From positions 2,480,001-2,544,000 of the forward strand of contig NZ_LT629742.1 in the NCBI RefSeq assembly GCF_900104895.1: a DNA stretch of 64,000 nucleotides, read 5' to 3'. Both the position numbers and the translations under genes were made by a program. The notes under the pieces were generated by a model. That model worked only from the letters and a program-made list of their open reading frames with translations. It was not told the origin of the DNA and searched no databases. The DNA comes from Microterricola viridarii (GTDB lineage: Bacteria > Actinomycetota > Actinomycetes > Actinomycetales > Microbacteriaceae). Below are positions 9,018-57,878 of the stretch, in pieces (the stretch's first letter is position 1; every line of letters begins with the position of its first letter).

Positions 9018-9077
9018 GGGCACCGGGCTGGGCGCCGGGCTAGGCGCCGGACTGCGCGTCGGGTTGGGCGCCGGGTT
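9018..9077. repeat. 12-bp tandem repeat, five degenerate units
   Basis: Five consecutive 12-mers of the form GGGCGCCGGGCT, at 9018, 9030, 9042, 9054 and 9066, differ from each other at one to four positions. The array directly abuts a 76-bp palindromic element starting at 9075. No gene covers it; translated on the plus strand it would read GAGL repeats, but there is no start or gene context to support coding. Confidence 0.75.
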
Positions 9078-9150
9078 GGGCGGCAATCGAAAGATCGGGC
9101 GGCGGATTCCGGCCCCACGCTGCCTCCCGATCCCCTGTCGGCCTCCCGAT
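9075..9150. repeat. 76-bp quadripartite palindromic element, copy 1
   Basis: Four 10-mers with spacing 10-9-10-18-10-9-10: GTTGGGCGGC (9075), ATCGGGCGGC (9094), GCCTCCCGAT (9122), GCCTCCCGAT (9141). The left pair and right pair are inverted with respect to each other and each pair repeats with a 19-bp period. It lies between the DUF559-type gene and dnaG. Copies 2, 3 and 4 are at 10139, 16949 and 56333 with the same spacing. Confidence 0.85.
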
Positions 9151-9201
9151 CGGATGCGGCGGCCGCGGGAGCCGCGGGGCCGCGGGGCCGCACGGCCCGC
9201 A

Positions 9202-10038
9202 TCAGCGCGCCTCGTGCAGCCGCTGTGCCAGGGCGCGCAGGATGTCGGCTTCGACGCGCGGCCAGTCGAAGAGCACCTGGCGGTAGTCGACGCGCAGCAC
9301 GGTGTACCCGAGCAGGGTCAGCGCCCGGTCGTGCGCGATGTCGGCGCCGCGTTGTGCGGCCGAGGAATGGTGTGTGTAGCCGTCGATCTGCAGCACCAGC
9401 CGCTGCCCGATGAGCCCGTCGACACGGTGACCGGCGAGAACCACCTGTTGCTTCACCGTGATGCCGAGCGCGGCCAGTCGAGCGACCGGAATCGTCTCGA
9501 TGCCCGAATCGGAGAGGCTGGACATCGCTTCGCGAACCGCCCGGGCCGCCCGCGTGCGCAGCGGCAGCCGCGCCAGATGGTGCGGTGTGACCAGCTTTGT
9601 GTTGAGGGCGGAATCCCACACGGCGAGTGCGTTCACGAACGGCTGGCAGTCGGCGATGTGCACGAGCGCATTCTCGACGGGCTCGACGAGCGCGTGGTGG
9701 GTGACGGCGACGGGGCCGATGCTCCAGTGCACGCGTTGGCCGGGCCCCACGGCGGTGTGGCCGGAGCCGTGGCTGGCGCTGAAGTGCTGCTGGCCGTCAG
9801 CGAGGTGCCAGAGGCCCAGCCGCTTCGCCGCGCTGAGGCAGGCAACGCGGCCCCCGAGCTCGGCCGCGGCACGCAGCTCCGCCGGGGCGTCCGGCAACGC
9901 AATCCAATCGCGACGCACCCGCCCGATGACCTCCGTGTCGACCGCGGCGCGGATGGCGTAGCGGGTGAACCCGGCGCGGAGCGCCTGCTGCGAGTGGGCG
10001 ATGCCGTCGTGTTCGGTCAGCCAGCGTGCGAGGGACAT
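9202..10038 (-). CDS. DUF559-type protein with Vsr/restriction-endonuclease-like C-terminal domain
   Basis: A 278-residue protein. The N-terminal 170 residues look like a winged-helix/AbiEi-type region (residues MSLARWLTEHDGIAHSQQAL onward, with a helix-rich RYAIRAAVDTEVIGRVRR stretch). The C-terminal 100 residues match DUF559: GIETIPVARL, then RVDGLIGQRLVLQIDGYTHH, then RALTLLGYTVLRVDYRQVLFDW. This is the Vsr-like nuclease fold with E..D..QID catalytic-type residues. Such proteins occur in many copies in actinobacterial genomes and their target is unknown. ATG 10038 starts the conserved region. The gene is flanked on both sides by copies of the 76-bp palindromic element. Confidence 0.75.
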   Translation of the reverse strand: MSLARWLTEHDGIAHSQQALRAGFTRYAIRAAVDTEVIGRVRRDWIALPDAPAELRAAAELGGRVACLSAAKRLGLWHLADGQQHFSASHGSGHTAVGPGQRVHWSIGPVAVTHHALVEPVENALVHIADCQPFVNALAVWDSALNTKLVTPHHLARLPLRTRAARAVREAMSSLSDSGIETIPVARLAALGITVKQQVVLAGHRVDGLIGQRLVLQIDGYTHHSSAAQRGADIAHDRALTLLGYTVLRVDYRQVLFDWPRVEADILRALAQRLHEAR

Positions 10039-10138
10039 GCCGCCAGTCTGCGCGCAGGCGTCCGGCTGGCCCTGCGCAGCGCTCGCGCTGTGGACAAGCG
10101 ACCGGCGAGGGACGCCTGTGCACACGTGCGCGAACCGG

Positions 10139-10214
10139 ATCGGGCGGCTTTCGGCGGATCGGGCGGCGGTTTCCGGCCAGAAGCCGCCTCCGCATCCTCC
10201 GTCGGCCTCCCGAC
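10139..10214. repeat. 76-bp quadripartite palindromic element, copy 2
   Basis: The 10-mers are ATCGGGCGGC (10139), ATCGGGCGGC (10158), GCCTCCGCAT (10186) and GCCTCCCGAC (10205), with the same 10-9-10-18-10-9-10 layout as copy 1. Its centre shares the TTCCGGCC core with copy 1, and the spacer before the last arm ends in GTCG in both. It lies between the divergent DUF559-type and amidohydrolase genes. Confidence 0.85.
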
Positions 10215-16948: not shown

Positions 16949-17024
16949 CTCGGGAGGCAAGAGTCACATTGGGAGGCCGGTTCGGCCCACATTTGGCCTC
17001 CGAATCCCCCGGATGCCTCCCGAT
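16949..17024. repeat. 76-bp quadripartite palindromic element, copy 3
   Basis: The 10-mers are CTCGGGAGGC (16949), ATTGGGAGGC (16968), GCCTCCGAAT (16996) and GCCTCCCGAT (17015), with spacers of 9, 18 and 9 bases. It fills the gap between the convergent ybaK-like and VOC genes, so it could also act as a bidirectional terminator. Confidence 0.85.
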
Positions 17025-23965: not shown

Positions 23966-24074
23966 TGCCGCGAGGGCGCCTCGTACCACTGGTCGCGTTG
24001 CTGGGGGCTCGGCCACGGCGTCGGTACTGCTGCCGTCGGGCGGCGTTCGTGCTGTGGCCGCGCTCGCGGCACGC

Positions 24075-24120
24075 GAAAAGTCTCGCGGCCCCCGACATAC
24101 CGGGGGCCGCGAGACTTTTC
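24075..24120. repeat. 20-bp perfect hairpin, element family B, copy 1
   Basis: Arms at 24075-24094 (GAAAAGTCTCGCGGCCCCCG) and 24101-24120 are exact complements around the loop ACATAC. It lies between the convergent lipoprotein and leuA genes and is followed by AGGGCCGCGAG. A near-identical core, in inverted orientation, is at 47318-47391. A terminator role is plausible. An outer pair GTGCCGCGAG (23965) / CTCGCGGCAC (24063) also brackets the region before it. Confidence 0.8.
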
Positions 24121-24151
24121 CAGGGCCGCGAGGGCGCTGTGCTGGTGCGCG

Positions 24152-30338: not shown

Positions 30339-31262
30339 CTAGAAACCGAGGCGGCCGAGCAGCTTGGGGTCGCGCTGCCAGTCCTTGGCGACCTTGACCC
30401 GCAGCGAGAGGAAGACCTTGCGCCCGAGCAGCTTCTCGATCTGTGCGCGCGAGGTGGCACCGACGTCCTTCAGCCGGCTGCCGCCCTTGCCGATGATGAT
30501 GCCCTTCTGGCTGTCGCGCTCGACGAAGAGGTTGGCGTAGATCTCGAGCAGGTCCTGGTCCTCGCGCTCGATCATGTCATCGATGGTGACGGCGATGGAG
30601 TGCGGCAGCTCGTCGCTGACGCCCTCGAGCGCGGCCTCGCGGATGTACTCGGCGATGCGCTCCTCCGTGCCCTCGTCGGTGACGGCCTCCGCCGGGTAGA
30701 GCGGCTGGCTGGAGAGCGGCAGGAGCTTGAGCAGCTCCTCGCTCAGGATGTCGAGCTGGATGCCGTCGACCGCGGAGATCGGGATGATCGCCGCCCAGTC
30801 GCGCAGCTTCGAGACGGCCAGCAGCTGCTCGCCAACCTTGTCCTTGGAGACGGTGTCGAGCTTGGTGACGATGGCCACCTTCTTGGCGCGCGGGAACTCG
30901 TCCAGCTGCGTGTTGATGAAGTTGTCGCCGGGGCCGATCGGCTCGTCGGCCGGGATGCACAGGCCGATCACGTCGACGTCGCCGAGGGTGGACTGCACGA
31001 GGCTGTTCAGCCGCTCGCCGAGCAGGGTGCGCGGGCGGTGGATGCCGGGGGTGTCGACCAGGATCAGCTGGCCGTTCTCGCGGTGCACGATGCCGCGGAT
31101 GGCGCGGCGGGTGGTCTGCGGCTTGGAGCTGGTGATGGCGACCTTCTCGCCGACGAGGGCGTTGGTCAGCGTCGACTTGCCGACGTTGGGGCGGCCGACG
31201 AACGAGACGAAGCCCGCCCGGTAGCCGCTGGGAGTGCCCGGTGCGGGCGTGGCGTCGGTCAT
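30339..31262 (-). CDS. era: GTPase Era
   Basis: A 307-residue GTPase needed for 16S rRNA maturation and 30S assembly. G1 is GRPNVGKST at residues 23-31, G3 is DTPG in ILVDTPGIHRPR, and G4 is TKLD in IVTKLDTVSKDK. The C-terminal KH domain shows GIIIGKGGSRLKDVG. Its ATG overlaps the stop of the CNNM-type protein (ATGA), continuing the minus-strand ybeY-CNNM-era operon. Confidence 0.97.
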   Translation of the reverse strand: MTDATPAPGTPSGYRAGFVSFVGRPNVGKSTLTNALVGEKVAITSSKPQTTRRAIRGIVHRENGQLILVDTPGIHRPRTLLGERLNSLVQSTLGDVDVIGLCIPADEPIGPGDNFINTQLDEFPRAKKVAIVTKLDTVSKDKVGEQLLAVSKLRDWAAIIPISAVDGIQLDILSEELLKLLPLSSQPLYPAEAVTDEGTEERIAEYIREAALEGVSDELPHSIAVTIDDMIEREDQDLLEIYANLFVERDSQKGIIIGKGGSRLKDVGATSRAQIEKLLGRKVFLSLRVKVAKDWQRDPKLLGRLGF

Positions 31263-47317: not shown

Positions 47318-47391
47318 GGCTCGCGGCCCTCGAAATGTCTCGCGGCCCTCGTTATGTCGGGGGCCGCGAGACATTTCGAGGGCCGCGAGCC
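47318..47391. repeat. 34-bp hairpin, element family B, copy 2
   Basis: Arms at 47318-47351 and 47358-47391 pair over 34 positions with a single G-T wobble around the loop TTATGT. The inner 36 bases match 24075-24120 in inverted orientation. The outer arms add a second CGCGGCCCTCG unit. It lies between the convergent rpsT and holA genes. Confidence 0.8.
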
Positions 47392-56332: not shown

Positions 56333-56408
56333 ATTGGGAGGCCGACGAGAGATGGGGAGGCCATTGTGGCCCGCTTGCGGCCTCCCAATGCCACGAATGC
56401 CTCCCAAT
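56333..56408. repeat. 76-bp quadripartite palindromic element, copy 4
   Basis: The 10-mers are ATTGGGAGGC (56333), ATGGGGAGGC (56352), GCCTCCCAAT (56380) and GCCTCCCAAT (56399), with spacers 9, 18 and 9. The outer arms are exact complements. It lies between ltrA (upstream end) and the 3' end of the HNH endonuclease gene. Confidence 0.88.
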
Positions 56409-56459: not shown

Positions 56460-57878
56460 CTACTCGACCAGCACGGGCTGGCGCTCGCGCTGCTGTTCGA
56501 GGAGGTCGGCCAGCTGGGTGCGGGACCTCGTCGATCTTCGCCAGGGCGTCTCGGCCTCGCTGTGGCCGTTCCGCAGCCAGGGCGGGGGTTTCACGTCCGG
56601 GACGCCGTCGATCATCAGGATCCGCCAGCCGCTCGTCTCGATGGTGCGGTGGTGGTACCAGCAGAGGAGGACTCCGTTGCAGGTCTCGGTTTCGCCGCCG
56701 TCCCGGTACGCGATGACGTGGTGGATCTCCGACCAGGCGGCCGGGATGCTGCAGCCGGGGATGATGCAGCCGCCGTCCCGGAGGCTGATCGCCCGCCGCT
56801 GGGCGGCGTTGAACACCCGGTCGGTCGTGCTCAGGCTGACCAGGCGCCCGTCGTCGTCGATCAGCACATGCTGGAGGCCGCCCGCGCACACGAACTGCTC
56901 GACCGCCCGCAGGGAGATGGGCGCCTCGCAGCCCTCGACGAACCCGGAGCCGCTGCCGGCGGTCAGGTCGGCCTGCCGCACGGAGACCAGAACGGTCGGG
57001 GCGGCCCCGCCCATCGTCGGGGCGGCGGCGCTGCGGGCGGCGCCGTCGATCAGGCTCGCGAAGACGTCGTGCCGGGCCTGCGCGGTCGCGCGGGGGTCCT
57101 TCGGCTGGTCCGGGTCGGCGTCGGTGAAGGTGGGCTTCGAGCGCGGGCTCAGGTAGGCGTTCAGCAGCGTCTCGAACTTCGCGTCGACCTCGGGCAGCAA
57201 CGCCATCCTGCGGTGCACGAGGCCGTCCCGGGTGAGGCCGCCGCTGATGCCGCGGGCGGCCATCGCGCGCTCCTCAATCGGTTCGGTGCCGTCCTCATCC
57301 AGCACGCTCTCCCAGACGCGGGCCTGCCCGCGGACCTCGTCGGCCGCGAACGGCAGCGCGGACTCGAGGGTGGGCCCGGTGGCGGCGGCGACGAGCGCGG
57401 TCTCGGCGAGCTCGACGTTGAGGTCGCCGACCCGGGCGCGGATCGGGTCGAGGGTGTCGACGATGGCCAGAGCGCTGTCGTAGCCGAGCGCGCCGGACCG
57501 GAGTGCGGCGGCGACCTGCTCGAAGCGGGCCGGCATCGTGACGCCGGTCAGGGCGACCCGGGCGCGGGTCGCCGCCCCGAGTCGCATTCGTTGGATGAGG
57601 GTGCGCTCGGACGTCAGGGTGACGCGGGCGAGGAGCTCGACGCCGTTGCGGCAGCCCTTCTTGGCCGAGAGGCGTTCCTCGCCGAGCTCCCGGCGGGAGC
57701 GGAACGCGACCTCCCCGGCGGCCCGGATGCGGAGCGCGTCGGCGAGCCGGCCGACGGCCTCGGCCGTCGCGGTGAGCTCGAGCAGGGCGTCGTCGCGCAG
57801 CATCCGCTCGTCGGATCCGGCGAGGGCGGCGGCGAGGAGGGAGCGTGCCTCTGCCAGCTGCCCCGCCGCGTTTTCCAT
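56460..57878 (-). CDS. DUF222 / HNH endonuclease domain protein
   Basis: A 472-residue protein of the actinobacterial DUF222-HNH (13E12 repeat-type) family. Residues 1-300 form the helical DUF222 domain (for example GYDSALAIVDTLDPIRARVGDL). The C-terminal HNH nuclease is CIIPGCSIPAAWSEIHHVIAYRDGG...LLCWYHHRTIE, with Cys-x4-Cys-like pair, central HH and final HH. The genes are multicopy in actinobacteria and behave like selfish or defence-related elements; the role is unproven. A TAGAAT -10 box is seen just upstream. The 76-bp element lies 51 bases after its stop. Confidence 0.9.
   Translation of the reverse strand: MENAAGQLAEARSLLAAALAGSDERMLRDDALLELTATAEAVGRLADALRIRAAGEVAFRSRRELGEERLSAKKGCRNGVELLARVTLTSERTLIQRMRLGAATRARVALTGVTMPARFEQVAAALRSGALGYDSALAIVDTLDPIRARVGDLNVELAETALVAAATGPTLESALPFAADEVRGQARVWESVLDEDGTEPIEERAMAARGISGGLTRDGLVHRRMALLPEVDAKFETLLNAYLSPRSKPTFTDADPDQPKDPRATAQARHDVFASLIDGAARSAAAPTMGGAAPTVLVSVRQADLTAGSGSGFVEGCEAPISLRAVEQFVCAGGLQHVLIDDDGRLVSLSTTDRVFNAAQRRAISLRDGGCIIPGCSIPAAWSEIHHVIAYRDGGETETCNGVLLCWYHHRTIETSGWRILMIDGVPDVKPPPWLRNGHSEAETPWRRSTRSRTQLADLLEQQRERQPVLVE

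Follow-up and report, generated by a model that had tools for sequence, protein, structure and literature searches.

Four-arm palindromes with a 19-bp arm period and their pairing with DUF559 nuclease genes in Microterricola and its relatives: a candidate repeat-and-nuclease system

Which described systems come closest to a dispersed palindrome that brackets a nuclease gene? The available text of PMC2817692 and PMC3733652 describes REPs and REPINs as dispersed extragenic palindromes near the 3' ends of genes, the RAYT gene being bracketed by two copies. Within the portions of the REP literature searched, the Y1 RAYT class is the only enzyme tied to these repeats. On the nuclease side, MTES_1575 is defined as a Vsr-type REase in the available section of PMC3710099, and a DUF559 protein of Caulobacter is treated as Vsr-like in that of PMC12907096. 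An EDxHD enzyme is described in the accessible part of a review (PMC3943268) as dimerising on a target almost 60 bp long.

How does the present locus compare? The window, that is, the whole stretch of 64,000 nucleotides that was analysed, belongs to the 3.84-Mb genome of Microterricola viridarii (coded G000). Its palindromes and genes, compared with those of related genomes, suggest an undescribed repeat-and-nuclease system in these bacteria. At the level of sequence we demonstrate the plan of the elements, their pairing with the gene and their dialects, the last with exceptions. An earlier note on this DNA had described the elements and their plan correctly but had missed the nuclease gene between copies 1 and 2 and also a second family. 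It knew no named family with this plan; neither did the literature searched, which was mostly titles and the starts of abstracts, with most subscription papers and preprints outside the search.

The four-arm element and its spacing

The features of the window are as follows, the strand of a four-arm copy being the orientation that best fits the other copies.

9075..9150, minus strand: four-arm palindrome copy 1, 51 bp from the stop codon of the DUF559 gene, on its 3' side
9202..10038, minus strand: gene of a 278-aa DUF559 / MTES_1575 (Vsr-like) nuclease, lying between copies 1 and 2; PF04480 above cut-off
10139..10214, minus strand: four-arm palindrome copy 2, 5' of the DUF559 gene, with its core 103 to 173 bp upstream of the ATG
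16949..17024, plus strand: four-arm copy 3, solo, between convergent gene ends
24063..24132, no strand assigned: second family, copy 1, CTCGCGGC-N11-CTCGCGGC-N16-GCCGCGAG-N11-GCCGCGAG
47320..47389, no strand assigned: second family, copy 2, four arms all exact
56333..56408, plus strand: four-arm copy 4, solo, 51 bp past the stop codon of a DUF222-HNH gene

The four 76-bp copies claimed at 9075-9150, 10139-10214, 16949-17024 and 56333-56408 all stand at those positions, and the 10-9-10-18-10-9-10 plan is seen in each. The GGCC centre is common among copies but not universal. We searched with the pattern GGGMGGC-N12-GGGMGGC-N18-GCCKCCC-N12-GCCKCCC, in which the spacing is fixed, allowing at most 3 mismatches. 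It matches four times in the window, against a mean of 0.00 in 100 dinucleotide shuffles, and finds 23 elements in the 3.84-Mb genome, against 0 for a reversed control pattern at the same stringency. Oriented by best fit, these 23 copies have unlike halves: an A is invariant in both left arms, and in the right arms G replaces T in 5/23 and 3/23, the orientation itself having been chosen by fit.

If the spacing is left free, what does it become? When the arms had to be exact GGGAGGC and each gap could range from 0 to 30, the M. viridarii genome yielded 30 matches, which belong to 18 elements. In them the first gap was always 12; the second was 17 in three matches and 18 in the rest, and 17 of the 30 rows were measured a second time. 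A scan with looser criteria, covering the window and 17 stretches, added copies with a centre of 17 at 30465, 1209697 and 1210720. The known copies number 26, a lower bound since regions outside the looser scan may hold further centre-17 copies, and the 76-bp plan is found in 23 of them. The arm period is 19 bp in every search that allowed it to vary, and the centre measures 18 bp in all copies but three, which have 17. A scan that assumes no arm sequence, run over 404 kb of the same genome, placed period 19 at 8 places at a score of at least 40 and at 6 places at 42 or above, while every other period from 12 to 30 reached at most 3 places at 40 and none at 42. In a 360-kb sample of a control genome period 19 gave 0 places, and the other periods at most 3 at 40 and two in total at 42. 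The genome-wide search for which the earlier note had called thus yields many copies whose spacing is not free, and the idea of a fixed plan stands.

Applied to the window, the arm-free scan (period 19, score at least 38) returned six places: the four copies and two with CTCGCGGC arms, the second family listed above, which is built on the same plan. The 404-kb sample, in which only period 19 stands out, added a third copy of that family (L258:6185, genome 766185). No partner gene of the CTCGCGGC family was seen among the 292 loci examined.

The 26 copies occupy 22 intergenic regions, of which our own simple gene caller makes 11 convergent, 10 co-directional and 1 divergent; convergent or co-directional regions contain 25/26 copies. 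Among window intergenic regions of at least 60 bp, 6 are convergent, 17 co-directional and 6 divergent. Some copies of the genome stand in tandem groups, about 200-280 bp apart. Looser tandem groups lie at 1496817 (233 and 268 bp) and 1537037 (283 bp), and one locus of a relative (L108, G230) has three copies, at 3618383, 3618617 and 3618851, spaced exactly 234 bp. The intergenic regions of L051, L055 and L048 carry other abundant palindromic repeats, for example of the GTTGGCTCGAGGGAGCGCCAGCGACCGAAGCCAAC and GGTCTCGATACG...CTACTCGACCAGCGGG types. Copy 4 adjoins the DUF222-HNH gene (56460-57878, minus strand), whose 3' end matches many places in relatives, which makes it one of a multicopy family.

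Are the elements read as DNA or as RNA? The earlier note took them for a recognised structure of either kind; this reading is supported. In 45 GGGMGGC copies only 2/12 spacer pairs pass a permutation test at the 0.05 level, and four show less pairing than expected, in a set from which 17/19 G182 and 2/3 tandem G230 copies were dropped, which includes no G025 copy, and in which orientations are mixed and some copies are related. Such weak covariation speaks for arms read in DNA rather than for a conserved RNA stem. The two halves of AAGGA and CAGGA elements are visibly more complementary, and from these there may be RNA or extruded hairpins. Folding of the 8 strands of the four window copies gave z <= -1.8 in 7/8 and z <= -2.7 in 6/8. 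Rfam at gathering score has 0 matches within the window. None of the four window elements contains a GTAG, although one is found immediately beyond the edge of copy 3.

The DUF559 gene and its brackets

What gene lies between copies 1 and 2? Its product scores 32.1 and 32.5 bits against PF04480 (gathering cut-off 20.6), and the only other gene of this genome seen between two copies (1209697/1210720, unit B) is also of the DUF559 family. E181, D207, H224 and D237 are invariant in 23/23 aligned proteins and may correspond to the residues of the EDxHD motif. Against its orthologues in G182 and G230 the gene has a dN/dS of 0.15-0.28; 11 pairs of DUF559 genes give 0.08-0.33, with dS saturated in two pairs. 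The comparison thus shows purifying selection on the gene, whose putative catalytic residues are retained. The window protein has Q where most other DUF559 proteins examined have E. Among solved chains, a profile of the 23 proteins finds 3hrl at E 1.2e-5; 3r3p, 'Mobile intron protein', which we take to be I-Bth0305I, is a weak match at E 0.035. The AlphaFold model (mean pLDDT 33) is unusable. At the N-terminus the likeness to AbiEi is weak: PADLOC gives an AbiEi match at E 0.004 and the AbiEi N-terminal domain reaches 17.8 bits in two relatives, under the cut-off of 25, while the window protein itself, searched up to E 10, does not match the AbiEi Pfam domain. A RAYT partner was considered and rejected; Y1_Tnp (PF01797) occurs in 0/11 genomes, against 5/14 control genomes.

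The protein has matches at 1e-30 in 110/398 genomes sampled from the family, spread over 38/85 genera, and at 1e-25 in 6/396 genomes sampled from the phylum, one of them outside the family. A viral link was considered and rejected: viral_contigs gave 0 exact matches, and the protein matches are 1 phage and 2 plasmid proteins at 29-35% identity. The match to the unit B gene of M. viridarii (1209781-1210530) begins only at residue 27, and its counterpart in G063 (C1:633315-634135) is split over two frames.

How general is the bracketing? Seven genomes hold 39 DUF559 matches, and at 7 of the 30 loci read a GGGMGGC four-arm element stands on both sides, one of these loci being in another genus (G025). 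A pair score that assumes no arm sequence and allows a period of 15-23 was applied first to the 30 best loci. The survey comprises 66 distinct DUF559 loci from 35 genomes and 13 genera, 8 duplicates having been removed before counting; these are the best-scoring loci returned, not a random sample. A matched four-arm pair scoring above 88, a cut-off chosen afterwards so as to lie just over the highest score among 74 control genes (87.2), is found at 22/66 loci in 9/13 genera. The period is 19 at 20 of the 22 and 18 at the other 2 (both g85). An earlier threshold of 82 (29 loci) proved too lax, for 7/55 other window genes and 4/19 genes beside solo copies reach it. Pairs made of flanks from two different genera reach 82 in 30/132 cases, with a 95th percentile of 89.2 and a maximum of 95.0; they score as the shared plan alone would, so the pair score by itself is no proof that the two arms match. 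A second measure, similar sequence on both flanks, exceeds 26 at 43/66 DUF559 loci, all 22 paired loci included, and at 0/116 control genes; 26 is the control maximum, and the controls come from M. viridarii, its nearest relatives, G025 and G089 only, against 35 genomes in the 66 loci. Neither measure shows a pair at 23/66 loci. Two related Tsukamurella plasmid genes have no pair, and their flank similarities, 20 and 17, do not reach the 26 of the best control.

At the 22 paired loci the 5' copy ends 84-223 bp upstream of the start codon and the second copy lies a median of 14.5 bp past the stop codon. The bracketing copies are direct in 16 and inverted in 6, although they are near-palindromes, so that some orientations rest on a small score difference. 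Their arms are unlike from locus to locus (TCGGGAGG, AGCAGGAG, TTAGCAGG, CGGGAGGA, TTCGAAGG, ATACCGGA, GGATCCGG, TGCACGAC and others). In a tree of the 66 proteins the loci with pairs, taken at the laxer cut-off of 82, form one clade, L251 excepted. Other DUF559 subfamilies have flank palindromes of a different build: the gene at 1516466 (L272, genome 1514900-1518200) lies between two near-identical GACTCGCCAGAAAACGTGCCA palindromes. At L273 (genome 3128600-3131900) a palindrome with GAGACTGCACGACTTGTAGTTC comes after a DUF559 gene, and a similar palindrome stands in G182 beside site 30465.

Arm dialects and the history of the sites

That arms vary while the geometry stays fixed, as first seen in the window, holds in other genera with other arms (GGGAGGC, AAGGA, CAGGA). 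There are 23 GGGMGGC copies in G000, 19 in G182 and 19 in G230, and none in the g3 or g51 genomes scanned. MAGGA elements of identical plan occur in 17/24 genomes, the reversed control giving 0 in all 24; they number 17 in G063, 11 in G129, 2-9 in two g78, 6-31 in six g3 and 5-17 in seven g51 genomes, and 0 in G000, G182, G230 and four control genomes.

Does the dialect of the dispersed copies follow that of the brackets? It usually does, with exceptions. Bracketing arms have the solo dialect in ten genomes (G000, G182, G230, G063, G086, G149, G200, G283, G224 and G302). On the other hand, the two genes of G129 have GGGAGGT and GGAGGA arms as brackets and its 11 dispersed copies are AAGGA, while G050 and G175 have CAGGA-type copies and a gene bracketed by another palindrome. 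In G120, G266 and G332 four-arm copies are present, with no DUF559 gene match at 1e-30. Site 30465 carries GGGAGGC arms in M. viridarii and G230 and AAGGA arms in G063 and G129, all at period 19; in G182 it holds an altered element, the inner arms changed together on both sides.

Across the genomes compared, four-arm copies are demonstrably uneven in their presence within the genus. Of 15 M. viridarii sites read in four relatives (G182 missing at one), 9 are occupied in M. viridarii and G182 only and 4 also in G230; for the 9, gains are an easier reading than repeated losses. At the three window sites close to dnaG, M. viridarii, G182 and G230 have a copy and G063 and G129 do not. One loss is clear: at G182 site 2069238 (L225) a deletion left only arm 4, while M. 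viridarii and G230 keep the element. The comparison of insertion sites, also proposed in the earlier note, gave 10 aligned sites without a clean empty site or target duplication, their flanks diverged or rearranged. Unit B has the same neighbours in M. viridarii, G230, G063 and G129, four species, and hence the gene unit hardly moves.

Interpretation and comparison with known systems

It seems probable that the four-arm palindromes are cognate DNA sites of the DUF559 nuclease that they bracket, and that the solo copies are non-autonomous copies of such a site. The helix-turn-helix-like N-terminal part would read the arms, two protomers sitting on the two halves with two arms each, and the Vsr/EDxHD-like domain would nick or cut near the centre. 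Solo copies might then have spread by cutting and repair from another copy, or perhaps by capture of extruded hairpins; they would persist chiefly immediately downstream of genes, and may serve there as 3'-end hairpins. More tentatively, and just short of an even chance, we regard the whole as a second, independently evolved REP-type system, in which the Vsr/EDxHD-like DUF559 nuclease, in place of a HUH or DDE transposase, recognises four-arm palindromes of 19-bp period, has them on both sides of its own gene and spreads copies across the chromosome, each lineage and paralogue having a dialect of its own that co-evolves with the nuclease.

Might the protein be mainly a DNA-binding regulator, the upstream copy its autoregulatory operator and the solo copies the further operators of a regulon? 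An AbiEi antitoxin autoregulates via inverted repeats (available text of PMC7319586), weak AbiEi matches fall at the N-terminus of the protein, and the 5' copies end at a fitting 84-223 bp ahead of the start codon. We nevertheless think a regulon unlikely, for a second matched copy stands near the stop codon and a split of 11 convergent, 10 co-directional and 1 divergent among 22 regions is a poor promoter layout. A little less likely still are structural 3'-end hairpins, either bidirectional terminators or mRNA stabilisers, with an incidental link to DUF559. The convergent or co-directional setting of 25/26 copies, the folding of 7/8 window strands and the largely complementary halves of MAGGA elements all suit them; yet no control gene (0/116) reaches the flank similarity of 43/66 DUF559 loci, a terminator needs no 19-bp direct repeat, and covariation in the GGGMGGC spacers is weak. 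Some transposon ends carry repeated transposase sites, and the elements could be ordinary transposon remnants with two such sites per end, the DUF559 genes being cargo or targets. This we hold improbable: among the loci read only DUF559-family genes are bracketed by two copies, the bracketing arms differ by lineage yet keep to DUF559 genes, and Y1_Tnp is absent in 11/11 genomes.

If the REP-type reading of the nuclease and its palindromes is true, a repair-type nuclease does a RAYT-like job in actinobacteria and the REP way of life arose twice. The natural dialects would help to work out how the protein reads the arms. Many DUF559 proteins would gain a suggested role, and a class of palindromes so far unexplained would find an explanation.

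With AbiEi antitoxins the protein shares a weak N-terminal similarity; it differs in its C-terminal DUF559 domain, and no other gene is called between the window brackets. The EDxHD homing endonucleases (I-Bth0305I) resemble it in a possible common nuclease core, from a weak profile match, and in a long target (PMC3943268, in part), whereas here no intron is seen and the sites flank the gene and are dispersed. TIRtrons, RAYT-like genes in long terminal inverted repeats, also have several unlike flank types per enzyme family, some of them dispersed; their enzyme is Y1, and a 19-bp arm period is not among the features described in the available text of PMC3733652. From REP/RAYT systems (REPtrons) the present one differs in its enzyme family, DUF559 rather than a Y1 tyrosine transposase; in elements of about 70-76 bp with four arms and a 19-bp period, against REPs given as 20-40 bp in the source text available; in pairs that are 16 direct and 6 inverted of 22, where the same partial sources have RAYT pairs inverted; and in the GTAG that the four window elements do not contain. 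It resembles them in that the repeats are extragenic, near 3' ends and rare between divergent genes (1/22 regions), and in an enzyme gene that has a copy of the repeat on each side, with DUF559 in the place of RAYT.
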